IMG/VR virus record: IMGVR_UViG_3300031753_000298
Coordinates: 1-60,988 of that record
DNA length: 60,988 bases
Direction: 5' to 3' (one strand)
Origin: a virus
The translations under genes and the position numbers were made by a program. This document shows positions 7,357-60,215 of the stretch, in pieces (position 1 is the first letter of the stretch; every line of letters begins with the position of its first letter). Below the pieces are notes generated by a model. The model saw nothing but the letters and a program-made list of their open reading frames with translations, was not told where the DNA came from and did no database searches.

Positions 7357-7907
7357 TGAAACAAACTCATTGCCTCCGTGGTCACTTACGTTCTCCAGAT
7401 AATCTTACTTCTGTAGGCCAATGCAAAATTTGCCATACAATACAGGGAAGACAACGGCATTTTGCGAAACGTGATCAGATCCTTGCAGCCGCACGTAAGC
7501 GATATTGGGACAATCCTCAAAAGCACCGGGAAGCCTCGCGACAATGGGCTAAGGATAATCCGAACAAAGCGACAGCCATTCATCGGACATGGCGCTGGTC
7601 GAACCGTTCACTGTGTCTTTTGTCAGCGACTCGTAGACGCGCTCGAAATACAAATACTCCTTTCAATTTAACTCTGGAGGACATTTTTATTCCAGATGTG
7701 TGCCCGATTCTTGGAATTCCTCTTTTCTTTACTCCTCGGAAAGTAACGAATAACACGCCATCTTTGGATAAGATTATTCCGAACCTTGGCTACGTCAAAG
7801 GCAACGTTGCCGTAATCAGCATGAAAGCGAATGGTCTCAAAAACAACGCGAGTCTGAAAGAGTTCAAATCCTTAATTCAATATTTGGAGACTCACGGTGT
7901 TCAGTAA
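7356..7907 (+). CDS. Homing-type endonuclease (HNH / endonuclease VII-like), free-standing
   Basis: 183 residues. An N-terminal Zn-like C-x2-GH...C-x2-C, basic repeats (ARKRYWDNPQKHREASRQWAKDNPNK), then the catalytic region: DVCPILGIPLFF, SLDKIIPNLGYVKGNV, IS-x-x-AN-x-LKNNAS. This pattern is typical of phage-encoded homing nucleases that cut unoccupied alleles next to their own gene. It overlaps the first codons of the large terminase, so it may protect or spread that locus. It is more AT-rich than its neighbours, has its own promoter, and has a paralog at 44285-44821. Confidence 0.8.
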   Translation: MKQTHCLRGHLRSPDNLTSVGQCKICHTIQGRQRHFAKRDQILAAARKRYWDNPQKHREASRQWAKDNPNKATAIHRTWRWSNRSLCLLSATRRRARNTNTPFNLTLEDIFIPDVCPILGIPLFFTPRKVTNNTPSLDKIIPNLGYVKGNVAVISMKANGLKNNASLKEFKSLIQYLETHGVQ

Positions 7908-10425
7908 TGCTCCAATCAATACACATGAACTCAAGGCCAAAACCGGCCAACTCCTGCCTTCGCAGCGTGAGTATGTGTTCTCGCCCGAGCGTTTCAGCAT
8001 GCTTGCGGGAGGGTTCGCTTCCGGCAAGACCCACGCAATGATTTTGAAGGGTCTCGTGTTGTCTGCTGTGATCCCTGGCAACGTCGGGATGGTCCTGCGT
8101 TACCACTACACAGATTTGGAAGAGTCTACGATGCGGACTTTCTTCGATATCTGCCCGCCGTCGTGGATCAAAGCGTTCAATAAGAAAGCACGCACGGTAC
8201 TACTGCGTAACGGGAGCCTGATTTTTTTTCGGCACTTACATGATGCCAAAGCTCTGACCAAAACTAGGCGTTTGGGCGCGAACCTCGGCTGGTTTGCGAT
8301 CGACCAAGCGGAAGAGATTCAGCTTGAACACTGGCAAGCGATGATGTCACGACTCAGGCTGCCGCGCGCGCCCAAGAAGTTTGGATTCGGAACGATGAAT
8401 CCCGCAGGTCACGACTGGCTGTGGGAGACCTTCTTTTCTCAATTCAAACCGTGGCCGCGCGACAAAGAGAAGAAGGCTTTGCCTATCGATGGAAAGTACT
8501 ACCAGGCGTTCCGCGGGCCGGACACGCTCGGGATCGCGGTGAACTCAGAAGAAAACAGAGAGAGTGCAGGCGGGTTCATCGAAGATTCATATTTCGACAG
8601 TAACCTGAAACAGTGGGGACGTGAGTGGGTCGAGCGTTACGTGTACTGCTCGTTTGACGATTTTACTGGCAAAATTTACAGGGAGTTTGAGGGAGGGTTG
8701 CGTAATGAAGACTATCGCTCCGTACATATTGTTGATCCTTTCCCGATTCCTAAACATTGGCCCCTCACGGTGGGAATTGACGTTGGCGGCGATAGTCCGT
8801 GGGCTGTTGTACCTGAATACACTGACGATGCCGGTAATCAAATTATCGTTCGAGGGTTTTCCAAACGAACCGGACGAACCGGAGAAGTAGCGCAGTGGAT
8901 CAAGAACAACCTTCCCTGGAACGAATCGCGCACCCAGTACGTGATGGACTGGGAGAACAAAGTCGCAATGGTCGAGCTGGGGCAAGATCACGGGATCCAC
9001 GCCCAGATCGCGCGCAAAGAGGTGATCCCCGGTATCCTTCAGACCAACGCATATTTTCATGTGCAGAAACATCGTGCGCTCCCTGAGTGGTATCAAGACA
9101 CGCAACCGAACGCTCGTTATCAAAAGTTCCGCAACGCCGGCTCGCCGCGCACGTTCGTGTTCAATACGTTCACGGAGTTTATTCAGGAGCACGACGCGTA
9201 TAAATGGGATCCCAACAAAGCAGACAAGCCTCTGAAGACTGCGACCGCTCGCTACGACACGTGTTTCGCGCAGGGAACAAATATTTTGATGGGAGACGGT
9301 ACGCAAAAACGAATAGAACGTATCTGTGCTGGGGATTTTGTCATGACACGCTTTGGCTCAAAACGTGTCCTTAGTACTGGGATGACTAATTCTTATGCTG
9401 AAGTGTTTCGGGCCGAGTTTTCTAATGGCACAGAAATCGTTGCTACTGCTGAGCATCCCTTTTGGTCAGTTAATGCCGGTCTTTTGACATTGAATACTCT
9501 TCGATATTCTGATATACTTCAAGAATGGAACCCAGAACAGTTATCTACGACGGCATTGAGTGGTACATCAACAAAAGGAATCCGTACTATCGAGCCTTCG
9601 TCAACGGCAAGACGATTAAACTCCATGTGTATATCTGGACGAAACACAATGGCGCAGTTCCTGCAGGATATGTGGTTCATCACAAAGATGAGAACAAACG
9701 AAATTGGGAATTGGGTAACTTGGAATGTATCCCGTCTGGGATCCATGCAAAGGAACGTCATCCCTCTAATCTCGATCTCGCACGGAGCGCCGCCGCTAGC
9801 TGGCACAAATCTGTGGTTGGTCGGAGATGGCATTCTTTGCACGGGAAGCGGGTATGGAAACAAAGAGTGCTCAAACATCGGGTTTGTAGACACTGCAAAA
9901 AACAGTTTTCCACCAAACACAACCGTAAAGAATTCTGTTCCAACAACTGCAAATCAGCATGGCGGCGAGTCGCTGGTTTGGACAACATTAAAAGAAGGTG
10001 CGTCGTCTGCAGCAAGTCGATTGTGGTCAACCGTTACTCAAAAATCCGCTCGTGCAAAGGTTCCTGTTCGGCTCGTCTCACTGTCGAAGGCCGTTCCAAG
10101 ACCCGTTTATAATCTCGCTGTTGAAGATGTTCATGAATATTTCGCAAACGGACTTCTTGTTCGTAATTGCGACGCGCACCGTTATGTCTGCATGACACGG
10201 CCGATCCCCGGTAAATGGGAGGAGCCTGAACGCGATTGGGACTCCATCGCGAAGAAGGATCCGTTGAGCTACCGCGCAATGCGCGATATGGACAAACGGA
10301 TCGCCGAGCGAGAGTGGCGGAGGAAGGGCGGGGCCGCGTTGAGGGAAGCGGACATGGAAGATGCGCCGGATGTGGATCTGCGAGGCGATGAAAAGTTTGA
10401 CTGGGCGGGACAAGGGGAAGTCTAA
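7897..10425 (+). CDS. Terminase large subunit, interrupted by an intein
   Basis: 842 codons; 540 residues after removal of the 302-residue intein. ATPase motifs: Walker A GGFASGKT (about residue 38), Walker B LGWFAIDQAEE, and coupling motif GTMNPAGH. The nuclease begins at VGIDVGGDSPW (first Asp), continues with YVMDWE, and the last metal-binding motif YDT/CDAHRY is split by the intein exactly before Cys +1. The protein packages DNA into the prohead through the portal. GTG start at 7897 with TTGGAG upstream; the first codons overlap the HNH gene. No CTGTGCAG copy lies in this 2.5-kb gene. Confidence 0.93.
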   Translation: MFSNAPINTHELKAKTGQLLPSQREYVFSPERFSMLAGGFASGKTHAMILKGLVLSAVIPGNVGMVLRYHYTDLEESTMRTFFDICPPSWIKAFNKKARTVLLRNGSLIFFRHLHDAKALTKTRRLGANLGWFAIDQAEEIQLEHWQAMMSRLRLPRAPKKFGFGTMNPAGHDWLWETFFSQFKPWPRDKEKKALPIDGKYYQAFRGPDTLGIAVNSEENRESAGGFIEDSYFDSNLKQWGREWVERYVYCSFDDFTGKIYREFEGGLRNEDYRSVHIVDPFPIPKHWPLTVGIDVGGDSPWAVVPEYTDDAGNQIIVRGFSKRTGRTGEVAQWIKNNLPWNESRTQYVMDWENKVAMVELGQDHGIHAQIARKEVIPGILQTNAYFHVQKHRALPEWYQDTQPNARYQKFRNAGSPRTFVFNTFTEFIQEHDAYKWDPNKADKPLKTATARYDTCFAQGTNILMGDGTQKRIERICAGDFVMTRFGSKRVLSTGMTNSYAEVFRAEFSNGTEIVATAEHPFWSVNAGLLTLNTLRYSDILQEWNPEQLSTTALSGTSTKGIRTIEPSSTARRLNSMCISGRNTMAQFLQDMWFITKMRTNEIGNWVTWNVSRLGSMQRNVIPLISISHGAPPLAGTNLWLVGDGILCTGSGYGNKECSNIGFVDTAKNSFPPNTTVKNSVPTTANQHGGESLVWTTLKEGASSAASRLWSTVTQKSARAKVPVRLVSLSKAVPRPVYNLAVEDVHEYFANGLLVRNCDAHRYVCMTRPIPGKWEEPERDWDSIAKKDPLSYRAMRDMDKRIAEREWRRKGGAALREADMEDAPDVDLRGDEKFDWAGQGEV
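9262..10167 (+). other. Intein in the terminase nuclease motif
   Basis: 302 residues, from Cys1 (CFAQGTNILMGDG, block A) through block B (GTEIVATAEHPFW, with the T-x2-H) to block F/G (VYNLAVEDVHEYFANGLL, then VRN followed by Cys +1). It sits in the D-x2-DAxRY catalytic motif of the terminase, a typical conserved-site insertion. The penultimate residue is Arg rather than the usual His. Between blocks B and F, about 180 residues in this frame show no endonuclease motif. Instead an HNH gene occupies the same DNA in another frame (9525-10112). Confidence 0.9.
9525..10112 (+). CDS. HNH homing endonuclease nested out of frame inside the intein
   Basis: 195 residues in a frame different from the terminase/intein. 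The N-terminal part matches HNH_3-type homing nucleases: YRAFVNGKTIKLHVYIW, NGAVPAGYVVHHKDENKRN, LGNLECIPSGIHAKERH. The C-terminal half holds two zinc-finger-like modules: CRHCKKQFS...FCSNNC and CVVCSK...CKGSC. Its stop TAA falls within the DNA encoding intein block F (VYNL). The intein frame has no stop over the whole 588 bases, so both frames appear maintained. The ATG has only a weak purine-rich site upstream; translation could be by reinitiation or frameshift. Confidence 0.8.
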   Translation: MEPRTVIYDGIEWYINKRNPYYRAFVNGKTIKLHVYIWTKHNGAVPAGYVVHHKDENKRNWELGNLECIPSGIHAKERHPSNLDLARSAAASWHKSVVGRRWHSLHGKRVWKQRVLKHRVCRHCKKQFSTKHNRKEFCSNNCKSAWRRVAGLDNIKRRCVVCSKSIVVNRYSKIRSCKGSCSARLTVEGRSKTRL

Positions 10426-37223: not shown

Positions 37224-37540
37224 CGATCATCTCCGTTTCCGCGAAGCACGCCACGCCGCAAACGATCAGTCAGCTTGTCAACGTTGGCTTGCATGACTTC
37301 ATCTGGAGTGAATCCCATCTCTGTGCAGATTTTCGTCCAGTAGTACAACACGTCTCCGAGTTCTTTCTTCAGAGCCGCCTTATCGATATGATCATCCCGG
37401 AGCAGTTTCTTGATGTGCTCTTGCACTTCGCCCGCTTCCCCGCCGAGACCAAGAGACATAATCGCGAGAGCTTCTTTGAGAGGGCGCCCGTCACTAATCC
37501 ACACGGACTCCACAAATCGCGCGTAATCTTTGAATGTCAT
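37220..37540 (-). CDS. MazG-like nucleotide pyrophosphohydrolase
   Basis: 106 residues, one catalytic domain. The E-x2-E...E-x2-D signature is visible: GLGGEAGEVQEHIKK, then KKELGDVLYYWTKICTE. MazG-type enzymes hydrolyse (d)NTPs to monophosphates plus pyrophosphate with Mg2+. ATGA overlap on both sides. Context with DUF5664 suggests control of phage dNTP pools. Confidence 0.85.
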   Translation of the reverse strand: MTFKDYARFVESVWISDGRPLKEALAIMSLGLGGEAGEVQEHIKKLLRDDHIDKAALKKELGDVLYYWTKICTEMGFTPDEVMQANVDKLTDRLRRGVLRGNGDDR

Positions 37541-38220
37541 GGTTGTGGTCCTAAAGGTGCCTCTAACTTCGTGCTCCTTGCCTTCACTTCGGAAATCTGG
37601 TGCTGTCCGGTCGGCAAAAATTCAACCGCCCACACAGATCCGGTGCTCTCCGGGCCGGGCATTCCGGTCTCCTTCGACGGAGTTTCTTTGATCGGCGGCT
37701 CGACGTTCTCCCCGAGCATGGTCCGGAGAGGGTAGAGATTACGCGAGTGCGTAACGAGCACGAGAGCCTGGGTCGGATTCTGCTCGACGTATTGCCGTGC
37801 GGCCTGCACAGGTTTGGAATAGCGACCGATGAAGTCTGAGTAGGATTCACCTTTGGGCACCTTCATGTCCGGGTTGTCTTGGAAATGCTTGAGCGCCGCG
37901 AGGGAGTCATCGTTGATCGGCATCCCAGTGAACTCGCCATACTGCCAGGGCCGGAGCGTCGGCGTAGTGGTCACGGCCGCGCCGGTCTTCTGCGCGATAG
38001 CGTGCGCGGTTTGCTGAGTTCGGGTGAGGTCGCCGGCGTAGATGTGGGCGATCGGGAACTGCGCGACCTTATCGCCAGCCTCGTTCGCTTGCTTGATTCC
38101 GGTCGCATCGAGTTTGGGATCAAGCCAGCCGCGGAACTCCTTCTGAGCGCCCTTGTTCATTTCGGTTTGTCCGTGACGAACTAGAAAAATTGTAGGATTA
38201 GCCAAAACAGAAGTCTTCAT
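37537..38220 (-). CDS. Histidine phosphatase (phosphoglycerate mutase-like)
   Basis: 227 residues. RHG motif in FLVRHGQTEMNKG, the distal YAGDLTRTQQTA, WQYGEFTGMPI, and the second catalytic His in LVLVTHSRNLYPLR. The enzyme is a phosphomonoesterase of unknown substrate; in a nucleotide cluster, a nucleotide or sugar phosphate is likely. The C-terminal 50 residues are disordered. One CTGTGCAG copy encodes KPVQAAR. Confidence 0.88.
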   Translation of the reverse strand: MKTSVLANPTIFLVRHGQTEMNKGAQKEFRGWLDPKLDATGIKQANEAGDKVAQFPIAHIYAGDLTRTQQTAHAIAQKTGAAVTTTPTLRPWQYGEFTGMPINDDSLAALKHFQDNPDMKVPKGESYSDFIGRYSKPVQAARQYVEQNPTQALVLVTHSRNLYPLRTMLGENVEPPIKETPSKETGMPGPESTGSVWAVEFLPTGQHQISEVKARSTKLEAPLGPQP

Positions 38221-43372: not shown

Positions 43373-44254
43373 CTAGATTTCTCCCTTGAACGGATCCACA
43401 AATTTCGTCTTCATCTTTTTGGGCTTCCGCGGCGCACCAGAGCCTGCCACTTTTCGCTTCTTCGCCTTGAACTCGAATCGCTCGCGATACGTTTCGATCC
43501 AGTCGGCAGCGAGAGCGGCATAATGCCCGCGCCAACGAGTGACATTACTCGCGTAGCGCAAGAACGCTTGCGCTGCCTTGCCTCCAAGTAGGCTAAGAAC
43601 CCGGCGACCTTGTTGAGTGAAGTCGCGAACTTTTTCTGCATCTTTGACGGCAAGTGGGAGAGGAGTGATTTCGCGAAGTATACCCGCTGGATGCAATCCC
43701 ACCACGACCGTATCTGGTCGGAACTTATCGAGTCGGTCCCACATCCGGCAGGCTTTCTCGGCTCCTTGCCGCGTAGTCCCGGTCGGGTACTTCGGGACTC
43801 CTTTGACGAACGAGACGCACCTAATCGTGTTGTCGAGGTAGACTTCTTCACGTTTTATCCCTGCCTTCGGCCATATCCAGAACTGTAAAGCGGCGCCACT
43901 CTGACCCACGACTGGCGCACCCTGCGATAAGAACTTGAGCGGGACATCAGGATAGTCACGCCGGCGAGTCCGGATCTCTGCCGAGACCGTTTCCGAATCG
44001 CTCCAAAAAGCGCGACCAGGAACGGGCGAGAGTTGAAACGAGACTTCTTCCCTTCCAGGGGCTTCGAGTACAAACGCGTAGCGCGCCGTAAGTGGATCTC
44101 CAGAGCCAGCAACAAACCCTCGTCCGACAGATTCGAAAGACTTTCCGTCTGCACAGTGCTCATTAACGTGTGTTTCAAGTTGTTCTCCACAGTGGCGGCA
44201 GGTACACGCGAGCGGGCAGCCCGCGGCGTAGCATTGTTCAGGTTTATCGCGCAT
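43373..44254 (-). CDS. Uracil-DNA glycosylase superfamily protein
   Basis: 293 residues. N-terminal Cys cluster (CYAAGCPLACTCRHCGEQ) likely binds a metal or Fe-S. The glycosylase-type motifs follow: ARYAFVLEAPGREE, GAPVVGQSGAALQFWIWPKAGIKREEVYLDNTIRC, and VVVGLHPAG. These match family 4/5-like UDG proteins (G-x-P-G/A...N). It may remove uracil from, or police, phage DNA. C-terminal basic tail (KAKKRKVAGSGAPRKPKKMK) ends in DPFKGEI. ATG at 44254 is preferred over an upstream TTG. Confidence 0.75.
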   Translation of the reverse strand: MRDKPEQCYAAGCPLACTCRHCGEQLETHVNEHCADGKSFESVGRGFVAGSGDPLTARYAFVLEAPGREEVSFQLSPVPGRAFWSDSETVSAEIRTRRRDYPDVPLKFLSQGAPVVGQSGAALQFWIWPKAGIKREEVYLDNTIRCVSFVKGVPKYPTGTTRQGAEKACRMWDRLDKFRPDTVVVGLHPAGILREITPLPLAVKDAEKVRDFTQQGRRVLSLLGGKAAQAFLRYASNVTRWRGHYAALAADWIETYRERFEFKAKKRKVAGSGAPRKPKKMKTKFVDPFKGEI

Positions 44255-44284
44255 CGTCCGTGCAGTCCTTAACAATTAAGTGTC

Positions 44285-44821
44285 TTATGGGGCAAACAAG
44301 AGAACGCCCCAAACAAGAAGCGCGATATTCCTTTTGACCAAAACAGACAACTCATGAAGGCTGGCGTCTCCTTTTAGTTTATTCGCACGCCAACTGATGA
44401 CCCAAACGTTTCCGGGAACATATCCCAACTCTGGAATGATTCGGTCAAGAGATGGTCCTTGAGGAGATTGTTTGCCTGTATTTTTCGTAAATACGAATGG
44501 TGTTCCGAACACAGGACACCGATCAGGAATCACAATATCAGCAAGCGTTAAGGAGTAAGGAACTTTTCTTTCCTTCGCATTTTTCCGCGCGTTTGAAAGC
44601 ATAATCAGTTCTGGATGTGATTCCCTCCATTTTAGGCAGACCATTTTGCTTCTCTCCGGATTGAGTACACGCCATTCTTTTGATTTTTCTTTTGCCTCAG
44701 CACGATGCCGAGATCGCCAAACAGCATGACAGGTTTTACATGCTCCAGTGGATTCTTCGACAGTGGACAAGGTTCGGGGATGTCCCCATTTACAAAATGA
44801 TTTGCGCGGTATTCTACTCAT
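44285..44821 (-). CDS. Homing-type endonuclease (HNH / endonuclease VII-like), free-standing
   Basis: 178 residues from the ATG at 44821, which overlaps the end of the helicase gene. C-x-K-W-G-H...CKTCHAVW finger at the N-terminus and the nuclease block CPVFGTPFVFT...PSLDRIIPELGYVPGNVWVISWRANKLK. It is clearly paralogous to the gene at 7356-7907. AT-rich, with no CTGTGCAG copy, sitting between helicase and UDG-like genes. Confidence 0.8.
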   Translation of the reverse strand: MSRIPRKSFCKWGHPRTLSTVEESTGACKTCHAVWRSRHRAEAKEKSKEWRVLNPERSKMVCLKWRESHPELIMLSNARKNAKERKVPYSLTLADIVIPDRCPVFGTPFVFTKNTGKQSPQGPSLDRIIPELGYVPGNVWVISWRANKLKGDASLHELSVLVKRNIALLVWGVLLFAP

Positions 44822-46367
44822 CGATGTAGTACAACTCCCTACGAGCACGTGTGGTGGCGACGTAGACAAGATTCGTCTCCTGCTCCCGCTGCGTGTCTAA
44901 CTTCATCGCCCAAGACGGAAAGAACAGATTCTGATTCAGGATGAACACTCGGTCCCACTCGCCGCCTTTCGCCTTGTGGACCGTGGACAGGATCACTTTG
45001 TCCTGTGCAGAACCCTCTCCATCCTGGAACATCCCCTCGATATCTCTCCGCAACTCCGCCAACGTGCGCGGTTCCTCGTTCAGAAACACCCTCAGAGTCT
45101 GGACCCGATCGCTCAATCGGTCCGCCTCATCCGGCTTCCTTTGCGCGTAGAGCTTCCCGATCTCGTTGCTCGACCACACACTCAGCTCATCCTTTATCGC
45201 CTGCACAGACGCGGATTCGGCCCAGTTGGATTTCTCGACCCGTTTCTGTATGCGTGTGAGCAACGCGAGGATCCCCGCCCCAATATCGCGCCCGATCACT
45301 TTGTTCGAAACCCGCGCCCGGATCAACGCGAACGCGCGCGCGATCAGCGGGGCGTTATTTCTGCACAGGATCACGTCGCCGGGCCGGAACGTCGAATCGT
45401 CCCAGTTGACTCCGAGCTGCGTAACCGATCCATCCGGGGCGTTCGGCGCCGGCTCAATATGGCTCACGTACATCCGCGCTCTCTCCACAACCTTGCGTGG
45501 GCACCGATAGCTCACAGTGAGCGGAAGCTCGATCGCTGCGAATTCCTGCTGAAGCTCCGCAATTGAGTTCGTCCCGGCGCCGCGGAAGCCGTAGATTGCC
45601 TGTCGAGGATCTCCAACCGCGATCAGCCGGCCGTCCGGAGCGAGCGATCGCCGAATGATGGCTTTCTGCATCTCGTTGATATCCTGAGCCTCATCTACGA
45701 AGACTAAATCGTATTTGCGGAACGGAGCGTTGAAGATGAGCGGCATATATATCTGATCGTTGAAATCAAATTTAGCCTGTGCAGCATCCTCGACGAGAGC
45801 GAGACGGATGGAGATCGAGAGAACTTCACGTGCGAACCGGATGAGTTCTTTCGAATCGACCCACTCGATTTCATAACGATCCATCAAGCCGAGCCAGTTC
45901 GTATCGTAATCACCAACGAGACCTTTTGCGTCTTCACCAACCTGCCGTGTCTCCGGCACAATCCCCGCGTTCTGCGCCATGCTCACGAGCTTCTTGGTCG
46001 CGCTCATGAAATCTTTGTTCCGGTTCGGCGTGCGGTCCCGGATGATGTTCGAGAGTTTGTACGCGTCCGGCGCGAGCGTGCGGCCCGTGAACTTCGCCCA
46101 GGCCCGCGACCCGAGGGCGTTCAGGGTCATCGCGGAGACGCTGGACGGGAGCCTCTTCTTGAGTTCATCCGCGATCCGCCTGTTGAACGCGATGAAGAGA
46201 GAGTCGGTCTCCATCGGGAGCCGATGTGCGGCCTCAACTATTGTGCTTGTCTTGCCCGAGCCTGCCACGGCCACGACGGTTGCTGATCCGGCTCCGTTCT
46301 GCACAAAGGCGAATATGGCTTCTTGCTGAGGGGACCACGCGAGTTTTGGAACGACGAGAGTGCTCAA
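44814..46367 (-). CDS. UvrD/PcrA-like superfamily 1 helicase
   Basis: 517 residues. Motifs: Q-motif LAWSPQQEAIF; Walker A VAVAGSGKTST; Ia FIAFNRRIADELKKR; Walker B YDLVFVDEAQDINEMQ; motif III RLIAVGDPRQAIYGFRGA; motif IV LTVSYRCPRKVVERAR; motif V/VI LSTVHKAKGGEWDRVFIL and NLVYVATTRARRELY. It translocates 3'-5' on single strands and may unwind forks or process recombination intermediates. TTG start with CTGGAG upstream, preceded by a perfect 8-bp hairpin. Confidence 0.9.
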   Translation of the reverse strand: MSTLVVPKLAWSPQQEAIFAFVQNGAGSATVVAVAGSGKTSTIVEAAHRLPMETDSLFIAFNRRIADELKKRLPSSVSAMTLNALGSRAWAKFTGRTLAPDAYKLSNIIRDRTPNRNKDFMSATKKLVSMAQNAGIVPETRQVGEDAKGLVGDYDTNWLGLMDRYEIEWVDSKELIRFAREVLSISIRLALVEDAAQAKFDFNDQIYMPLIFNAPFRKYDLVFVDEAQDINEMQKAIIRRSLAPDGRLIAVGDPRQAIYGFRGAGTNSIAELQQEFAAIELPLTVSYRCPRKVVERARMYVSHIEPAPNAPDGSVTQLGVNWDDSTFRPGDVILCRNNAPLIARAFALIRARVSNKVIGRDIGAGILALLTRIQKRVEKSNWAESASVQAIKDELSVWSSNEIGKLYAQRKPDEADRLSDRVQTLRVFLNEEPRTLAELRRDIEGMFQDGEGSAQDKVILSTVHKAKGGEWDRVFILNQNLFFPSWAMKLDTQREQETNLVYVATTRARRELYYIDE

Positions 46368-46595: not shown

Positions 46596-47276
46596 CTACT
46601 GATTCTCCTGCTCCCACATCCGTTTGTAGCCCTTCGATCCCGCCCCGACCTTGCCGTTCCACGGCTTGATCTTCTTCGGGTCGAACGCAGTCTGGGCGTT
46701 CAGGATGTTGCGGACCTTCAACCGGTTCTTGTAGCGCGGATCGTCGCCACCATCGGGACGGCGCAGGAACACGACTTCGAGACCGGTGAGCAACTTGTTG
46801 TGGTTCTCGATCAGCTCGTCGAAGGTCTGCGCACGGGCCGTGATCCCGACTCCGGCGCTCGTCCGTCCGGCGTCCTTCGCAAGCGTACGCAACTCTTGCA
46901 ACGTAGCGGTCCCGTCGTTGTTCGCGACCGCGATGCGGAACTGAGTCTGCTGCTTGTTGCCTTCCTCATCGGGCAGAGTGCTTGCGTCCACGTTGATGTC
47001 ATCCACGAAGCCCTTCGGCATGAACACGTCGTAGGTCACTTCGAGCGATGGCACGTTGGTGGACTGCAGGCCCACGATGACCGCAACGGTCTCTTTCTCG
47101 TTGTCGTAACGCTTCACCGTGACACTCGTGATCACGCCCTGGTGAGCATCCGGAATGGCCGGCGGCACCGCGAGCGAACTGGTCGCAAAATAATCGATAT
47201 CGCCCGCGCCTTCAGGAGCGGACTCGAACGCTTCGGTTACGCTCCCTGCTGCAAACACATCTTGTTCGTCACTCAT
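46596..47276 (-). CDS. Putative single-stranded DNA-binding / replication accessory protein
   Basis: 226 residues. A beta-rich core (HQGVITSVTVKRYDNEKETVAVIVGLQST, LEVTYDVFMPKGF, QQTQFRIAVANND) resembles an OB-fold scaffold, followed by helical stretches and a basic C-terminus (YKRMWEQENQ). Its place between the Sak4-like ATPase and the helicase gene supports a single-strand-binding role. The acidic tail of classical SSB is absent. Confidence 0.5.
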   Translation of the reverse strand: MSDEQDVFAAGSVTEAFESAPEGAGDIDYFATSSLAVPPAIPDAHQGVITSVTVKRYDNEKETVAVIVGLQSTNVPSLEVTYDVFMPKGFVDDINVDASTLPDEEGNKQQTQFRIAVANNDGTATLQELRTLAKDAGRTSAGVGITARAQTFDELIENHNKLLTGLEVVFLRRPDGGDDPRYKNRLKVRNILNAQTAFDPKKIKPWNGKVGAGSKGYKRMWEQENQ

Positions 47277-47339: not shown

Positions 47340-47630
47340 TTAATTGATCGGATATGCTCCGAGCTGCTCCAGCCGCCCGATCGCCTCTCCGTAACGGAAG
47401 AACACAACGCCGAACGAGATCAGCCGCATCAGATCCTGCACAGTCTCAATAGGAAACCCGGCCGTCATCCCTGCGCCCACGATCCGTTCCTTGAACGCCG
47501 GGAGCTTGATAATCGCGCCGATCTCCTGCGAGTTCGGAGCGTCCGGGCCGTGGCCTTCTTGGATCGCGCGCTCAGACATCTCGCTGATGACCGCTTCGAG
47601 CATCTCGTTTGTGAATGAGATCGCGCTCAC
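47340..47630 (-). CDS. Hypothetical protein in the replication operon, 96 aa
   Basis: GTG start overlaps the preceding stop (GTGA). Helical, with an acidic N-terminus (NEMLEAVISEMSERAIQEGHG) and FPIETVQDLMRLISFGVVFFRYGE. One CTGTGCAG copy (47436). Not recognised. Confidence 0.6.
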   Translation of the reverse strand: MSAISFTNEMLEAVISEMSERAIQEGHGPDAPNSQEIGAIIKLPAFKERIVGAGMTAGFPIETVQDLMRLISFGVVFFRYGEAIGRLEQLGAYPIN

Positions 47631-48706
47631 TTGGTCTCCTGCTTCGCGGCCTGCACTTTAGCCCAGAGTTGCGCGAGATTCATGGGTTCCTTGGGCTGGA
47701 GCACGGGCGGCATCCGCATCGCGAGTTCTTTGGGGAGCTTGATCTTCGCGAAGAGTTCTCTCTTGTATATCTGTTCCTTCCCCTTATCGTCTTTCTTCTT
47801 GTACTGCAGATACTGCGGGGTCGTGATGAACTTGCCCTGGCCGCCGCCGTAGAAGCTCGACTTGTCCATGAACAGGACGTACTCAAGCTCGGCGGTGAGC
47901 AGGAGCCGCGCGCCGGTCGGAAGATCCGGACCCATCGCTTCTTCGTTCGCAACCGGGGTCTCGTACTTCTTCGCGAGCGCTGTGAATATCGTGTGCATGC
48001 GGCGATTCTTCAGGCTGATGAGCAGATCGCGTAGGTTATCATTTACGGCTTTGTAGACCTGGCGCCCATCTTTCCGTTCGCGCCCGTCATCTGTCGTCTC
48101 GTTCTCATCCACTAACTGATTCGCGCCCTCGGTCATGTCGTCGATCTGCAGGACGGCGTTTCCATCCGGAGACGCGAGCCGATCCGCCCACTCAGGGAAC
48201 CCGATGTGCCGCGCGAGCTGATCGGGAAACTGCAACGCCCACGAGAGCGCCGCGCCATCCGTAATCTGCGCGACCCGATAACCTTGATTCTTGAGCGGGA
48301 GCATCTGCTCCTGCGCGCGAGTCAGGATGATTAGGGTGCGCTCGGGTCCGCCGAACTCGGCGGCAGTGGTCGTTTTCCTGCTGTCGGTTTCCCCATACAG
48401 TAAGCAATGAAGGAACCCGGACTCTAGCCCCTTCGTGTTAAATCCGACGATCCCTTTGGGCACCGTCATCTTCGCGCCGACCGCGGCGTTCACGCCGGCC
48501 GCAATTGAGGAGGGCTGCTGCACAGACAAAGAAGGGTGAGCGGTAGCTCCAGAAGGCATAGTTACGCTGGATTGAACGGCGCGAATCGTGCCGACCGCGG
48601 TGGGGGCAACTGAAGGAGACACTTTAGGGACGGTTATCCCATTCGGCTGAGCCGGTGTTCCAGGTTGCCCCACAGTCGATGTAGGGGAATCAGGAGAAGG
48701 GGTCAT
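47627..48706 (-). CDS. Sak4-like RecA-type ATPase (AAA_24), degenerate P-loop
   Basis: 359 residues. A disordered Pro/Ser/Thr-rich N-terminal 90 residues precede the ATPase domain: LLYGETDSRKTTTAAEF as P-loop (canonical GxxxxGK-[ST] has RK here), TLIILTRAQEQM, VLQIDDMTEGA as Walker B, and LLISLKNRRMHTIFTALAKKYE. The domain order fits phage Sak4/AAA_24 recombinases, which anneal single strands. It sits between SSB-like and small genes in the operon led by promoter P4. Confidence 0.7.
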   Translation of the reverse strand: MTPSPDSPTSTVGQPGTPAQPNGITVPKVSPSVAPTAVGTIRAVQSSVTMPSGATAHPSLSVQQPSSIAAGVNAAVGAKMTVPKGIVGFNTKGLESGFLHCLLYGETDSRKTTTAAEFGGPERTLIILTRAQEQMLPLKNQGYRVAQITDGAALSWALQFPDQLARHIGFPEWADRLASPDGNAVLQIDDMTEGANQLVDENETTDDGRERKDGRQVYKAVNDNLRDLLISLKNRRMHTIFTALAKKYETPVANEEAMGPDLPTGARLLLTAELEYVLFMDKSSFYGGGQGKFITTPQYLQYKKKDDKGKEQIYKRELFAKIKLPKELAMRMPPVLQPKEPMNLAQLWAKVQAAKQETK

Positions 48707-49004: not shown

Positions 49005-49017
49005 TGTCAATTTGACA
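49005..49017. promoter_or_regulatory. Operator O4 (TGTCA-N3-TGACA dyad)
   Basis: TGTCAATTTGACA, overlapping the stop codon of the nuclease gene and sitting upstream of promoter P4. The distance to -35 (7 bases) is close to that at O1 (8 bases), which is why an activator-type arrangement is considered. Confidence 0.7.
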
Positions 49018-49990
49018 CGTTCTGCTGTTCCTTCACTTGCTTGTAAAATTCCGCGACGCCCGCATGCAATGCGGTCCCGATCTGCAGTTCGATCTGCTCC
49101 TCTTTGTCGCTGAAGAGACCATTGATCAAGCGGTACTTTTCGAGACACTGGGACGCGAGTGAGTACTGACTCGCGCTGATGATCACTACGTCCGGATCCG
49201 CGAGCTTTTCCGGATCGATATGGATCAAGGAGAGCTGCGTCGCTGGGTCGGTCGGGTCGAACTTCGCGATGGCTTTGTCGTTATCCTCAAGCACAGTCGG
49301 ATGCACATGCTTCGAGCAATACTTCCCGAAGAACTGGCACTCCCGATTGAAGCTGTGACACTGCATGCCGGGAAGCTGCCACGGAACCAGCCCGGACCGG
49401 CGTGCGCATCGGATCTGCGCCGCCTTCGCGCGATATCCGGCCGCGATATCTTCCAACTGTGCAGAACTGAACTCATACAGCTCCGGCGTGTCCGGATCGC
49501 TTGGATCCTTCGGCCAGAACCGGACCGGATTACTCTTCACCGCCGCACGGACCCGAACTCGGGGATTCTGCACAGAGAAGGAGTAGGACTCGCCGGCTTT
49601 GTCGTAGTAGGTGCCGCGGTTGAGCGCGAGAGCGTAGAGGGAGATTTGGGAGCCAGTCGAGATCTCCCGAATCCACACGGTTTCGTTCCACCAGGAGGTC
49701 TCGCGCCCCTTCGCGTCGCGGCGCGGCTCCTTCGCAGATTTCCATTCGTTGCCACGGATGCCGATGGAGTCCTGATCGATCAAATCTTGGACGCCGATCG
49801 CGACCGTTAGCTCGTCGAGCCACAGGACGAATCCGGTCTCGACCGCGAGGATCCGGTTCTGGGAGTCTTTGGCGCCGTGCGTGGAGATCCAGGCGTCAAC
49901 GAGGCCGGCGCCAGTCTCGCGCGCGACCGGGGAGATGTCGAGGGAGGCGATGCTCTGCACAATACGATTGAAGTCAATTTTTAGCGACAC
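49007..49990 (-). CDS. Fe-S PD-(D/E)XK nuclease (Cas4/RecB-like), apparently circularly permuted
   Basis: 327 residues. Found in this order: R-E-T-G (25-27 region), VETGF (50-54), AIGVQDLID (64-72, Asp 69), EWKSAKEP (82-89; E82-x-K84 in place of D-x-K), QISLYAL (Q115...Y119), Cys211, Cys218 and Cys225 as a C-x6-C-x6-C cluster, then IISASQYSLASQCLEKYRL (Cys282) and IGTALHAGVAEFY (His309). In Cas4/AddB-type proteins the SASQ...C-x2-KY and LH block comes first. The start is well supported (GTG with AAGAAGG, overlapping the upstream gene), so the order is real. Confidence 0.8.
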   Translation of the reverse strand: MSLKIDFNRIVQSIASLDISPVARETGAGLVDAWISTHGAKDSQNRILAVETGFVLWLDELTVAIGVQDLIDQDSIGIRGNEWKSAKEPRRDAKGRETSWWNETVWIREISTGSQISLYALALNRGTYYDKAGESYSFSVQNPRVRVRAAVKSNPVRFWPKDPSDPDTPELYEFSSAQLEDIAAGYRAKAAQIRCARRSGLVPWQLPGMQCHSFNRECQFFGKYCSKHVHPTVLEDNDKAIAKFDPTDPATQLSLIHIDPEKLADPDVVIISASQYSLASQCLEKYRLINGLFSDKEEQIELQIGTALHAGVAEFYKQVKEQQNVSN

Positions 49991-55031: not shown

Positions 55032-55119
55032 GTTGATTCCACCAATCTCTCACGCACGCCCGCAACTCTCCGTAAAACACTCCGAAGAGAATGATCATAA
55101 TTGCGAAGCGCCAGTTCAT
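55018..55119 (-). CDS. Tiny membrane peptide, 33 aa
   Basis: ATGA overlap with the gene upstream and a 14-base overlap downstream. One short span (FAIMIILFGVFYG) followed by ELRACVRDWWNQ. Function unknown. Confidence 0.5.
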   Translation of the reverse strand: MNWRFAIMIILFGVFYGELRACVRDWWNQHGPK

Positions 55120-55301
55120 ATACGCCGCAACAGCCCCCGAAGCGCCCGGAACGGCCACGCTATTGTCCAGAGCATCAGGCCCATTCCGTCCGCGCGAGAC
55201 GCGACGAAATAGTCCGCAGTGCTCGGATGCGGGATGTACAAGGTGCCAATCCGTCGATACGGCGGTACCAAGGGCTTACGTTTGCGCTTACAAGTCTTCA
55301 T
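55116..55301 (-). CDS. First gene of the leftward small-gene operon, 61 aa
   Basis: ATG at 55301 with CAGGACAA upstream; longer in-frame starts pass through the promoter region and are rejected. Basic start (MKTCKRKRKPLVPPYRR) and a hydrophobic C-terminus (GLMLWTIAWPFRALRGLL). It is divergent from the RHS gene. Confidence 0.55.
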   Translation of the reverse strand: MKTCKRKRKPLVPPYRRIGTLYIPHPSTADYFVASRADGMGLMLWTIAWPFRALRGLLRRI

Positions 55302-55349
55302 TTGTCCTGTGCAGAGGGGAGGGCCGAACTTTATTCTCTCAACATGCGC

Positions 55350-55379
55350 ATTCTCGCTCAATTTAGGCTTGCGTGTCAA
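55350..55379 (-). promoter_or_regulatory. Leftward promoter P6b (divergent from RHS promoter)
   Basis: TTGACA (55374-55379 on the reverse strand), 18-base spacer, GAGAAT (55350-55355). It overlaps the rightward RHS promoter, so the two would compete or be co-regulated. Operator O5 lies 18 bases upstream of its -35. Confidence 0.55.
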
Positions 55380-55396
55380 GAAAAATCGCGTATAAT
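55369..55396 (+). promoter_or_regulatory. Rightward RHS promoter P6
   Basis: TTGCGT (55369-55374), 16-base spacer, TATAAT (55391-55396), with the phage-type TCGCG just before -10. Operator O5 begins one base after -10 and covers the transcription start, a typical repression geometry. Confidence 0.75.
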
Positions 55397-55397
55397 A

Positions 55398-55410
55398 TGT
55401 CAAATTGACA
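55398..55410. promoter_or_regulatory. Operator O5 (TGTCA-N3-TGACA dyad) at the RHS promoter
   Basis: TGTCAAATTGACA, inverted in flank orientation relative to O1 (ATAT before, CGTT after). A half-site TGTCAAG lies in the promoter spacer (55374-55380). This ties the RHS gene to the same regulator as the phage operons. Confidence 0.7.
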
Positions 55411-55484
55411 CGTTCGAATTACACGTGCTGGGCCGCCCAGCATTGAATCTCAAAGTGAGACACACAAACCAGAGGAATTTATCT

Positions 55485-58400
55485 ATGAAAACACTTAAGA
55501 TTTTAGGGCTGATGCTGATTTGCTTGATTGGAGCTCAGTTCGTCTCAGCTCAGGCCAACACCGGCTTCCCTCAGCACGGAACGTTCTCAAACGCTGGCGG
55601 CGGTATCGACACGATTGATTTGTCTAGTCTTAACGTTCACCTTTCTTTGCCTCTACGAAGTTTGAGCGCTGGCGATATGCCTGCGGTGGCAAAGCTAGTG
55701 GTGGACAATTCCGCTATACCCATCTCGTCTCCATTCCACTATCAATGGAACCCAGGTCTCCAGATAAATCCGAACACAATCGCATATCTCGGTAACAACA
55801 GTCCTTCCGGTTGGAAATGCGTGAACGGGCCGTTTACCGTATCCGGTGTCGTAGATTCAAACAACACGTTTCACAGCACCCCTCCTCTGACTGTGGCGTG
55901 CGGTAATTCAGGGACGACCACGCCAGGTACCGATGGATGGTCGTTAGAAGGAACGTTGAGTACTACTGGTGTGTGGACGACATTGACGGGCACCGATCCG
56001 GCAGGGAATGTATACAGCTTATTCCCCGGAACAAGTGTGACCGATCCGCATGGGAACAAAATTCAAGGATACTTTGATGTCAATTTTTGTCTCCAAGCCC
56101 GGTCATGTGGACCGCCGAACGGAGTAACATATTCCGGTTCTTTGACTGACGCCGCTAATGCCACAGTGCTGACTTCCTCGTCATCCATTGCATCGTTGAC
56201 GCCAACGGTGACTTACCCAGACGTGAACGGTGCTTCACAACCGATTACGTTGACCTATGGCCTATACAACGAGGACGCTTACTTTGGGTGCGCTGGAGAA
56301 ACGGACTATTGGGCTTCTGGCTTTGCAAATTATCTTCTAACCAGAGTAGCTTTTCCTGATGGTTCGTTCTACTCATTTGGGTATGAGCCAACGTTCAACC
56401 ATTCGACATTTACGACTGGACGTATCGCGTCTGTGACTCTTCCAACCGGCGGAATCATTCGATACGATTATTCAACCTATGGTACACACGGTCAGAATTG
56501 CAATCTCCAGCAGACTGCGGGATTCACGAAGACCACGCCGGACGGTGTGTGGAAGTTTGATAACTCCACGGGCACGAATGCGGCTCAGCACAACGTCACA
56601 GTGACCGCTCCTGATGGGACTTACACCGGATACAACTTCGATTACGAGTTTGAAACCTTGCGCCTGACCAAAACTGCTGTTGGCGGCACGACGCTCTCTA
56701 CAGTTACTACCTGCTACAACAATAATTTCACTGGATGCGCCACGTACAGCGGTCTGACAAATGGGCAAGCTATCACGCAAAAAAATGTCTACACCGACAT
56801 CGGTGCTTCGGCAGGCGCGGCCCAGGTCCAAACAAACTATGATTCCTATGGCCGGTTGACCGACGTTCGCAATTATGATTTTGGGCAGGGAGCAAATAAC
56901 TACGCCACGCATACCGCGCTTGTTTACGGTTCCTATAGCGGTGGCGTCTGCAATGCACTCACCGGCATCTTGAATCGTGTGTGCAGCACCACGGTTTTTG
57001 ATAGCTCTTCGCACATCCTGTCCTATGGTCTAGGTGTGTTCAATGCCTCGGGAGACCAAACACAACATCAGCAATTGGTCTCGGGTAACACCTATCTCAT
57101 TAGTTCCGCCTCGTACAACGCCAACGGAACCCTGCACACGACTACGGATGTTAACGGCACGATCACGAATTACACGCAGGGCGATTGTGGAGGGTTCTTT
57201 CCGACCGGCATCGCTGCTGGAGGAGTATCTCGATTCTTCGCTTGGGATTGCAATGGTGAAGTCATAAAGGCCGTAAATGACGGCAACGGTAATCCCGCGA
57301 CAGTGATCACCCATGCCGATCCTCTATGGCGACCTGATTCTGTGACTGATCCAACAGGAGCGCTAACCAGCTTCTCCTATACACCCACAAGCAGCACGTC
57401 ATCCATGTTGTTCGGGTTGAACTCACAAAACACGAGTGTGGTGACACTAGATTCGATGGGCCGTCCGTTCGACACGCAAGTTAAGAACGGGAGCACTTAC
57501 AAAACCTTCACGAGTGCGTATGATGTGAACGGGCGACCTTCTTCAACAACCCAACCGTGTTCTGTGGCTCTGGGTGCATCGTGCCCAACGGTCGAAACCA
57601 CACAGACGTATGACGGACTTAATCGACCCCTTGTGACCACAACCGCTGCGGGCGGAACCATAACGAACACGTACGCAGGGCGCGACGTATTGACTACACT
57701 CGGCCCGGCATCCACGGGAGAGAACGTCAAGAGTAAGCAGTACGAGTATGACGGGCTGGGTCGGTTGCTCTCCGTTTGCGAGATTAGCTCGATGACCGGC
57801 TCGGGTCCGTGCGGCCAGGATAGCGGCGGCACAGGGTTCCGAACAAGCTACACATATGATCCGCTGGGCCGGTTGCTGACTGTAACGCAAGGGGCGCAGA
57901 CTCGCACCTATGGCCCATACGACGGCCTGGGCCGGATGTCCCAAGAGATCAATCCAGAGAACGGAACGACCACCTACACCTACGATACAGCAGGCTGCTC
58001 AGGTACATCTAACGGCGATTTAGTTCGGCAAGCGGACGCCGTAGGCAACGTTACTTGCTACCACTACGACAATCTGCACAGAGTCACGTCTGTTACTTAT
58101 AGTGGCCCGTACCTCGCAAACACTCCCAGCAAAACGTTTGTGTATGACGCGGCGACTGTGAATGGACAGACTATGCAGAATGTCAACGGCCGTCTTGCCG
58201 AGGCTTACACAGGTGCTCGGGCTACGGACGAAGGCTTCAGCTACACAGCGCGAGGGGAGCTGGCCGACTACTACCAATCCAGCCCAACCTCGGGCGGTTT
58301 CTATCACACTGTGCAGAGCTACTGGCCGAACGGAACACTCGCGAGTATCTCCGGCGTCGGACTCCCGATCATTAACTACGGCGATATGGATGGGAGCGGC

Positions 58401-60215
58401 CTAGACGTGATGGGGAACGTTAAGACAGTGACCGCGAGTGCGGGAGTCAATCCTGTCTCGGCGGTTACGTACAGCAACTACAACTATGTTACGAGCGCGA
58501 CGTTCGGGTCTTCGGATGTTGCGACATTCAACTACGATGTTCACGGCCAGATGACGAAGTATCAAGAGGCCATCAACGGAACGATCGTGTCGGGTGTTCC
58601 GGCGTGGAACGCAAACGGGTCGCTCAAGAAACTCACAATTGTTGACCCGCTTAACTCCGGGGATGCTCAAACGTGCAACTACACACTAGAAGACTTAGCT
58701 CGTCTCTCGAAGGTGGATTGCGGAACAAAATGGGGCCAGACGTTTACGTATGACCCTTTTGGAAATATTGCGAAGCAAGTCATCTCCGGCGACGCGGGAC
58801 AGAACTTCCAGGCGACTTACAACACCAACAACCGAATTCATGATATAGGTGGACTTGTCCCGACCTACGACGCTAATGGAAACTTGTTGACAGATACATT
58901 CCACACCTACACATGGAACATCAACGGACGCCCGGCTACCGTGGATACCGCAACGCTGACTTACGATGCGTTCGATCACGTAATCGAGAAGACTGACGGC
59001 GGCGTGGATAACGAGTATGTCTACCTCGGCGGGCAGAAACTCGCCGTGATGGATGGGCAGGTTCAGAAGAACGCTTACGTTCCTTTACCGGGCGGAACAC
59101 AGGCCGTGTACGTCGCCGGAACTCTCTCGTTCTACCAAGTCCCTGATTGGCAAGGGAGCTACCGGATCGCTTCGACGCAGGGCCGAGCGCTCAAGTTTAG
59201 CCAAGCGTTCGCTCCGTTCGGGGAGTCTTATGCGTTGAGTGGGACCGGGAGCCGCCAGAGTTTCGCGGGCAACAATAGTGACACCGAAACGGACATGGCC
59301 GACGCCGGGATGCGCGAGGAACACACCACGCAGGGTCGGTGGATTTCTCCCGATCCGGCAGGGCTGGGCGCGGTGAGTTTGGCGGATCCGCAGAGTTGGA
59401 ACCGATACGCTTACGTGAGCAACAATCCGTTGATTAGTGTCGATCCTTCAGGACTAGAAGACCCCAATTTTGAAGAAAATCTTTATTTCAACAGCGGGGA
59501 ACATTTAGGCCAAGGCAATAGCTCCTTCTCCTCTTTGTGTTTTTGCACAAGCGGAGACAGCGAAAACACCGGAACTTTTTTAGATTTCGTTAACACTAGT
59601 CTCATGGGTGCCAACGGAAGCGGCAGCGACTCTCTTTTAGGGAACATGGAAGGAGTCTCAACGGAATCACAGCCGCTAGGCGGCGCGGGCGGTTCGTGGG
59701 ATGGGCCGCAGATGCTTAATTTCAGTGATCTGTGGAGTACAAGCGCAGGACAAAGTATAGAGTCAGCGTTTGCCCGTAACCCGGCTCACCCCGCCGTAGT
59801 GGGAGGTCCGGGGCTTTCCTCCTTCGAGATGAGTTCGATGTGGTTAACTGTGGGTAGCGCCCCAAGTTTCTTCAACATAAACAACACAGAAGCAGTATTC
59901 CATCCATCAGAGGCTCCCGCATTCCAACAGGAGGGGACAGCATTCAGGCAGTATTTAGTATCAAGGCCGGCGACCCGTAGAACAGGCGGACAGGCTTTGA
60001 TTTCTGTGTATCAGGAAGCTCTCGACGGCAGTGGCATGTGGCGCACTTCTAATCATTGGGGCACTATGACATCAACCAAATGGATGCTAGGCTCACCTGA
60101 GTATATGGAATCAATAGGCGGGTTGCGAGTAGAACCAGAGTTCTGGCTTTTCAACGAGCCAGTAACGGGATGGGTACGCTTTGCGGACATGACTCCCTAT
60201 GTGCCCGTGCCCTAG
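55485..60215 (+). CDS. Secreted RHS/YD-repeat protein with unique C-terminal tip
   Basis: 1576 residues from the ATG at 55485 (AGAGGAA upstream). N-terminal signal peptide (hydrophobic ILGLMLICLIGAQF, then SAQA). A beta-rich N-terminal region, then many YD repeats (YDSYGRLTDV, YDGLNRPLVT, YDGLGRLLSV, YDPLGRLLTV, YDNLHRVTSV), and the RHS core (GRWISPDPAGLGAVS, NRYAYVSNNPLISVDPSGL, about residue 1320). About 255 residues of non-RHS sequence follow, where polymorphic toxins carry their effector. Found on a phage, under a phage-type promoter. The tip has no motif I recognise, and no immunity gene is obvious. Confidence 0.93.
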   Translation: MKTLKILGLMLICLIGAQFVSAQANTGFPQHGTFSNAGGGIDTIDLSSLNVHLSLPLRSLSAGDMPAVAKLVVDNSAIPISSPFHYQWNPGLQINPNTIAYLGNNSPSGWKCVNGPFTVSGVVDSNNTFHSTPPLTVACGNSGTTTPGTDGWSLEGTLSTTGVWTTLTGTDPAGNVYSLFPGTSVTDPHGNKIQGYFDVNFCLQARSCGPPNGVTYSGSLTDAANATVLTSSSSIASLTPTVTYPDVNGASQPITLTYGLYNEDAYFGCAGETDYWASGFANYLLTRVAFPDGSFYSFGYEPTFNHSTFTTGRIASVTLPTGGIIRYDYSTYGTHGQNCNLQQTAGFTKTTPDGVWKFDNSTGTNAAQHNVTVTAPDGTYTGYNFDYEFETLRLTKTAVGGTTLSTVTTCYNNNFTGCATYSGLTNGQAITQKNVYTDIGASAGAAQVQTNYDSYGRLTDVRNYDFGQGANNYATHTALVYGSYSGGVCNALTGILNRVCSTTVFDSSSHILSYGLGVFNASGDQTQHQQLVSGNTYLISSASYNANGTLHTTTDVNGTITNYTQGDCGGFFPTGIAAGGVSRFFAWDCNGEVIKAVNDGNGNPATVITHADPLWRPDSVTDPTGALTSFSYTPTSSTSSMLFGLNSQNTSVVTLDSMGRPFDTQVKNGSTYKTFTSAYDVNGRPSSTTQPCSVALGASCPTVETTQTYDGLNRPLVTTTAAGGTITNTYAGRDVLTTLGPASTGENVKSKQYEYDGLGRLLSVCEISSMTGSGPCGQDSGGTGFRTSYTYDPLGRLLTVTQGAQTRTYGPYDGLGRMSQEINPENGTTTYTYDTAGCSGTSNGDLVRQADAVGNVTCYHYDNLHRVTSVTYSGPYLANTPSKTFVYDAATVNGQTMQNVNGRLAEAYTGARATDEGFSYTARGELADYYQSSPTSGGFYHTVQSYWPNGTLASISGVGLPIINYGDMDGSGLDVMGNVKTVTASAGVNPVSAVTYSNYNYVTSATFGSSDVATFNYDVHGQMTKYQEAINGTIVSGVPAWNANGSLKKLTIVDPLNSGDAQTCNYTLEDLARLSKVDCGTKWGQTFTYDPFGNIAKQVISGDAGQNFQATYNTNNRIHDIGGLVPTYDANGNLLTDTFHTYTWNINGRPATVDTATLTYDAFDHVIEKTDGGVDNEYVYLGGQKLAVMDGQVQKNAYVPLPGGTQAVYVAGTLSFYQVPDWQGSYRIASTQGRALKFSQAFAPFGESYALSGTGSRQSFAGNNSDTETDMADAGMREEHTTQGRWISPDPAGLGAVSLADPQSWNRYAYVSNNPLISVDPSGLEDPNFEENLYFNSGEHLGQGNSSFSSLCFCTSGDSENTGTFLDFVNTSLMGANGSGSDSLLGNMEGVSTESQPLGGAGGSWDGPQMLNFSDLWSTSAGQSIESAFARNPAHPAVVGGPGLSSFEMSSMWLTVGSAPSFFNINNTEAVFHPSEAPAFQQEGTAFRQYLVSRPATRRTGGQALISVYQEALDGSGMWRTSNHWGTMTSTKWMLGSPEYMESIGGLRVEPEFWLFNEPVTGWVRFADMTPYVPVP

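Follow-up and report, generated by a model that had tools for sequence, protein, structure and literature searches.

A Cas4-like nuclease gene with its parts in swapped order

Can a nuclease of the Cas4/AddB type carry its N-terminal block at the end of the chain and still keep every part of the family? The question is raised by a gene on the minus strand of the window, by which we mean the whole stretch of 60,988 nucleotides of viral DNA analysed here (IMG/VR record IMGVR_UViG_3300031753_000298; Table 1). A sequence-only reading of this DNA had proposed that the encoded protein begins with the catalytic half, continues to a cluster of three cysteines and ends with the block (hereafter N-block) that usually opens the chain.

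The order of the parts was assessed using PF12705, the family of Cas4/AddB-type PD-(D/E)XK nucleases that includes Cas4-like phage proteins. The window ORF matched the family at 46.8 bits (cut-off 22), with residues 25 to 194 corresponding to profile positions 91 to 225 and a second stretch completing the match. A six-frame search assigned nt 49409-49924 to profile 89-225 and nt 49007-49180 to profile 2-62; since the former is translated first on the minus strand, the PF12705 order is swapped. PHROGs matched residues 39 to 230 to phrog_69 (185-334) and residues 266 to 320 to phrog_1218 (5-61), while NCBIfam returned no match for the nuclease. Together with the three homologues described below, the two-stretch PF12705 match and the PHROGs matches bear out the proposed order. 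The six-frame search revealed no further PF12705 match in the window, and each family part is therefore present once, as the sequence-only reading had also held. No N-block sequence was found in the 42 in-frame open codons upstream of the GTG. As the parts run core, three cysteines, N-block, in place of the usual pfam12705 order of N-block, catalytic core, three cysteines, we file the window protein as a permuted variant.

Table 1 Features of the permuted nuclease and its gene neighbourhood (positions in the window)
Feature	Position	Strand	Evidence or remark
Permuted Cas4-like PD-(D/E)XK nuclease gene	49007..49990	(-)	327 aa, GTG start
Catalytic half, aa 20-200: helix, beta core, Q-x3-Y helix; mid-part of the canonical chain	49391..49933	(-)	PF12705 profile 89-225 and rotated alignment
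E51, aligned with E of 'PAVEL' in canonical homologues	49838..49840	(-)	invariant 4/4
Catalytic D69 (GVQD), aligned with canonical GHxD	49784..49786	(-)	invariant 4/4
E82-x-K84 catalytic motif	49739..49747	(-)	invariant 4/4
Q115-x3-Y119 motif	49634..49648	(-)	invariant 4/4
Three-Cys cluster C211, C218, C225, aligned with the canonical C-terminal Cys cluster	49316..49360	(-)	invariant 4/4
Linker from old C-terminus to old N-terminus, about aa 226-268, conserved FDxxDPA	49187..49315	(-)	alignment A1; best rotation cuts here
Displaced N-terminal block, aa 269-318: SASQY, fourth Cys C282, GT..H309 helix	49037..49186	(-)	PF12705 profile 2-62, phrog_1218 5-61, 4/4 homologues
Sak4-like (AAA_24, RecA-like) annealing protein gene, downstream	47627..48706	(-)	phrog_124 E 1.1e-6
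226-aa conserved gene, function unassigned	46596..47276	(-)	homologue in 3/3 permuted relatives
UvrD-like helicase	44814..46367	(-)	PF00580, phrog_1967 E 1.4e-95
Uracil-DNA-glycosylase-like (UDG-like) gene	43373..44275	(-)	PF03167 E 9.3e-7

The order is shared by three related phages

Full-length homologues with the same order, which the sequence-only reading had suggested seeking, were found in three further IMG/VR phage genomes at 62, 55 and 48% identity. Each is one open frame, and all three carry metagenome identifiers other than that of the window. A search using the major capsid protein revealed three close IMG/VR relatives (83, 81 and 76% capsid identity) and eight farther ones; a homologue of the permuted nuclease was present in 3/3 of the close relatives and 0/8 of the farther ones. 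Together with the window, the three relatives account for all four permuted proteins encountered in all scans. Three of the four score above the pfam12705 cut-off; the fourth (L087) gave no PF12705 match in either order and is tied to the group through homology only. In L088 the start of the permuted nuclease (L088:1504) is uncertain and may be an ATT behind gggagga. In L086, the ORF list contains a small HNH-like-looking ORF just upstream of the permuted nuclease (L086:1058-1402).

An assembly or sequencing artefact, or a gene in decay, might be suspected given that the window, a virus record, was put together from sequence data and does not come from an isolate. The presence of the same order in three homologous genomes excludes an assembly error in one contig; the four genomes share that order at 48-62% identity, the frames are open, and dN (0.28-0.82) lies well below dS (about 1 or more, or saturated beyond computing) in every segment of the nuclease, the displaced block included. 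We give this explanation next to no credence and regard it as refuted by the homologues. Judged by sequence, the arrangement is kept across four divergent phage genomes.

The routes to relatives that worked in viral contigs were the UvrD-like helicase and the capsid protein; direct scans of viral contigs with the nuclease, the Sak4-like protein and the terminase confirmed nothing. The window nuclease matched nothing in phages or plasmids by tblastn and nothing among PDB sequences by phmmer, and tblastn of two permuted homologues was likewise without a match in phages. Three alignment-based scans of viral contigs returned the same three genomes, one of them also returning the canonical nuclease of L098, and such scans of genome contigs with two pattern sets revealed no permuted relative. 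Since no more than two short peptide patterns went into each scan, absence from these scans is weak evidence.

Catalytic residues, cysteines and the new chain ends

Alignment A1 confirmed the key residues at the positions given by the sequence-only reading. E51, D69, E82-x-K84, Q115, Y119, C211, C218 and C225 are conserved in 4/4 permuted proteins, as are S272-A-S274, C282, G305-T306 and H309 within the displaced block. The H, D, (D/E)-x-K and Q-x3-Y of pfam12705 are hence complete and invariant in all four, and the same is true of the four cysteines expected of its Fe-S module (C282 in the N-block; C211, C218 and C225 past the core).

The rotated alignment places the new ends in a loop flanked by the 'GT..H' helix on one side and the helix preceding the first core strand on the other; added up, the residues ahead of the stop and those following the start approximate the length of the canonical segment. 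Past the third cysteine, the old C-terminal tail leads through a linker of ~46 residues, which contains FDxxDPA, into the old N-terminus. All four chains start at nearly the same place, and the residues flanking the new termini add up to the canonical loop length, in agreement with the earlier view that the protein is not a truncation. As aligned, the chain has been opened past the 'GT..H' helix and its old ends joined by this linker, with no part lost or doubled.

Canonical nucleases as controls

A PF12705 nuclease was present in 36 of the 38 viral records reached via the UvrD-like helicase, in all 36 as one collinear stretch; the remaining two records gave no PF12705 match. Over the 11 capsid relatives, PF12705 detected a canonical nuclease in two of the farther genomes and stretches of the permuted protein in 2/3 of the close ones. 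The other seven gave no match, among them G040, whose permuted protein was missed by PF12705 and recovered by the homologue search. The nucleases of G050 and of the GenBank phage MW202554.1 (capsid 40.6% identical) are canonical too. The tally is 40 canonical records and four permuted ones, the window being counted among the latter. In L098, the canonical nuclease, a Sak4-like gene and a third ORF lie in a row (L098:5001-7378), and in the rotated alignment this nuclease reads Q-H-K at the D-x-K position.

Rotation restores a single collinear match

For the Pfam rotation, each chain was cut 12 residues before SAS. Three of the four rotated chains gave a single PF12705 stretch, with scores rising from 46.8 to 52.4 bits for the window protein (profile 2-225), from 39.5 to 46.1 bits for L086 and from 38.7 to 43.7 bits for L088.

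The alignment of the four permuted sequences was then rotated at every eighth column and compared by hhalign with a profile of 28 canonical nucleases. In native order the score was 43.7 (161 columns). It rose to 62.7-64.3 (236-249 columns) when the cut lay at window residues 220-268, and for cuts within the displaced block, at residues 276-298, it dropped from 61 to 52. Cutting anywhere among the first 212 residues gave 36-53, and cutting past residue 303 gave 44-47. With the columns of the N-block shuffled, 40 rotated versions scored 43.7 ± 0.8 (maximum 48.7). This pattern is characteristic of a circular permutation: a single collinear match is regained on rotation, and both parts are homologous to the parent, occur once each and are swapped. 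Circular permutation, as the sequence-only reading had called it, is backed by the profile tests, the rotation scan and the three homologues, and at the level of sequence we hold it to be virtually certain.

The same tests bear on the possibility that the C-terminal block is a helical appendage resembling the N-block by chance, which would make the protein an N-terminally shortened nuclease. The block is indeed a short one, and by itself it reaches a modest 21 bits in Pfam (E 1.0e-5), which lies under the family cut-off. However, it has a PF12705 match of its own in two genomes as well as a match to phrog_1218, and its S, C and H are invariant in 4/4. Furthermore, the N-block alone scored 27.2 against the canonical profile, above all 40 column shuffles (12.7 ± 2.4, maximum 19.1), and a search with the N-block alone picked up the N-terminal end of the L098 nuclease, an independent canonical phage protein. 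A chance resemblance is thus disfavoured, and we consider it very improbable.

A profile of 26 nucleases from one canonical subfamily proved a poor yardstick, since permuted proteins score low against it and rotation adds almost nothing: the window protein gave 10.9 bits in native order and 10.7 in its best rotation (one domain), and L087 gave no domain hit. The 28-nuclease profile consists of this 26-member subfamily together with L081 and L082, and the rotation effect is visible with those two added; against L081 and L082 alone, scores were low in both orders (17.9 native, 27.5 rotated). Pairwise local scores against L098, L081 and L040 showed little or no gain from rotation. FastTree placed L098 beside the permuted group on the rotated alignment (support 0.842), with very long branches, and we draw no conclusion from this placement.

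Predicted structure

AlphaFold2 was run on the four permuted sequences (model 1; pLDDT 62.5, pTM 0.65) and with canonical N-block fragments added (model 2), the latter giving a poorer prediction (pLDDT 57.0, pTM 0.47). In both models, low confidence falls in the three-Cys and N-block regions; residues 201-244 and 275-295 are among the stretches of model 1 below a pLDDT of 50. Canonical fragments intended for a deeper alignment were dropped, MAFFT having put catalytic or three-Cys pieces on the N-block.

The best PDB match of model 1 by VIA-align was AdnA (9np6; Z 8.9, 177 residues, 5.2 Å). The Cas4-family protein ACE1 (Z 6.7-6.8), Cas4 (Z 6.6-6.7) and AddB (Z 5.9) also matched, at values under 8, which according to the tool's note may reflect merely a common arrangement. 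With Foldseek, no PDB chain reached E <= 0.001 and the top-ranking hit was human MGME1 (2.7e-3); families without a match in such fold searches are not thereby excluded. Residues 1-292 of model 1 matched residues 75-268 of ACE1 (9iac, 269 aa), leaving the first 74 ACE1 residues and the last 35 of the permuted protein unmatched. In the model, this coverage fits a permutation and is silent on where the block docks.

The gene occupies the nuclease slot beside a Sak4-like gene

The next sizeable gene downstream of the nuclease is the Sak4-like gene, followed by the 226-aa gene, the UvrD-like helicase, an HNH gene and the UDG-like gene. In the permuted relatives, a Sak4-like homologue adjoins the nuclease in 3/3 loci, all three of which also contain the 226-aa and UDG-like genes; the UvrD-like gene is found in 2/3 (within 13-kb loci). 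Sak4 proteins are described as phage single-strand annealing proteins in PMC8093625. The Sak4-like family was scanned in 28 of the records collected; in the canonical records where both genes were found, the Sak4-like gene shares the strand of the nuclease and follows it downstream within 1 kb (21/21). Given this position in 21/21 canonical records and the Sak4-like gene beside the permuted one, the permuted gene stands in the slot that a nuclease usually takes.

Elsewhere, the window contains a terminase large subunit ORF of 842 aa (7897-10425, plus strand) interrupted at roughly aa 456-757 by an intein/Hint-like insertion (PF05203 and PF14890, both below the Pfam cut-off), a histidine phosphatase family gene (37537-38220, minus strand; PF00300 E 2.7e-34), a 1704-aa ORF (55101-60215, plus strand) whose sole PHROG match, phrog_10385, covers a small part of it, and a phage integrase-like gene reaching the contig end (60464-60988, minus strand; PF00589 E 2.7e-17).

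Permutation could have upset the metal site, in which case the protein might no longer be a nuclease but bind DNA as a partner of Sak4, in a structural or regulatory role. Yet H309, D69, E82, K84, Q115, Y119 and all four cysteines are invariant in 4/4, and the gene sits in the nuclease slot beside Sak4. We judge the loss of nuclease function to be distinctly improbable.

Proposed mechanism and origin

In Cas4/AddB-type nucleases the Fe-S cluster joins both chain ends, which makes a permutation at this place feasible. We consider it probable that the gene encodes a natural, circularly permuted Cas4-like Fe-S nuclease of phages, whose block refolds in place and which resects ends for the Sak4-like protein. 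The displaced block would fold back into the position usual in the family, C282 would complete a four-Cys Fe-S site with C211, C218 and C225, and H309 would join the metal site of D69, E82 and K84; the permuted protein would bind an Fe-S cluster and be active as a nuclease. Its likely role, as predicted, is that of a DNA-end-resecting Fe-S exonuclease in a recombination module of the Sak4 type; its displaced block would occupy the family position, and single strands would pass to the adjacent Sak4-like protein. The UvrD-like helicase is encoded in the same gene block as these two.

The evidence of order and conservation fits a domain-swapped dimer or oligomer equally well, whereby the C-terminal block would complete the active site and cluster of the neighbouring chain. 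The linker of ~46 residues nevertheless seems to have the length needed for a chain to close on itself, and we regard a swapped assembly as rather unlikely. Returning to the permuted nuclease closed within its own chain, the finding that no family part is lost or doubled fits an in-frame tandem duplication of an ordinary gene with terminal loss; of the two copies made by the duplication, the first would then have lost its N-block and the second its catalytic half. A more far-reaching proposal, which we hold to be doubtful, is that this is the first natural permutation among Cas4/AddB Fe-S nucleases, with ends by the 'GT..H' helix and old termini tied at the cluster, and that DNA entry and its gating by the cluster are altered, possibly through domain swapping that is obligatory for assembly or through a contact newly made with the Sak4-like protein.

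A natural permuted case offers a direct test of the Fe-S cluster as a clamp between two separable modules and, if folded as proposed, would provide a ready-made nuclease with its ends on a different face. It also serves as a warning that collinear profile searches present such proteins as two weak or partial matches. In this phage recombination module, the nuclease chain has been rearranged and its genomic slot retained.

Comparison with known systems

A literature search by title and start of abstract, covering few subscription papers, revealed no paper on a permuted Cas4/AddB-type or PD-(D/E)XK nuclease. Words beginning 'permut' are absent from the accessible portions of PMC1913061 and PMC5704561. 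In PMC5567051, permutation refers to DNA ends, and PMC7824862 mentions permuted adenine methylases.

AddB and AdnA are Fe-S nucleases of the same superfamily, carried as canonical-order domains inside large helicase-nuclease chains. Their nuclease domains (PDB 4cej, 9np6) are among the best structural matches of the model to solved chains; compared with them, the window protein is a stand-alone, permuted nuclease. ACE1, an Argonaute-associated Cas4-family protein (PDB 9iac, 9iab), is likewise stand-alone and of similar size, and differs in the segments left unmatched at its N-terminus and at the C-terminus of the permuted protein, as a permutation predicts. The L098 nuclease (L098:5001-5867; IMGVR_UViG_3300045741_000124) has a similar N-block (tblastn E 3e-5) and is followed by a Sak4-like gene but, unlike the window protein, is canonical, with PF12705 positions 4-247 in one stretch.

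Cas4-like phage proteins of pfam12705 are described in PMC5704561, as is the Fe-S module with four cysteines that characterises the Cas4 family. The window protein resembles these phage nucleases in its family score above the cut-off, its catalytic residues and its four cysteines, and shares with the canonical phage nucleases examined here a place beside a Sak4-like gene. In contrast, its parts run catalytic half, three cysteines, N-block, whereas theirs run N-block, catalytic half, three cysteines, and it possesses a larger insert past E-x-K (about aa 87-112). A natural circular permutation of a nuclease domain is described in PMC3150331 for the HD domain fused to Cas10 in type III CRISPR-Cas; that domain has another fold and belongs to another system than the window nuclease.
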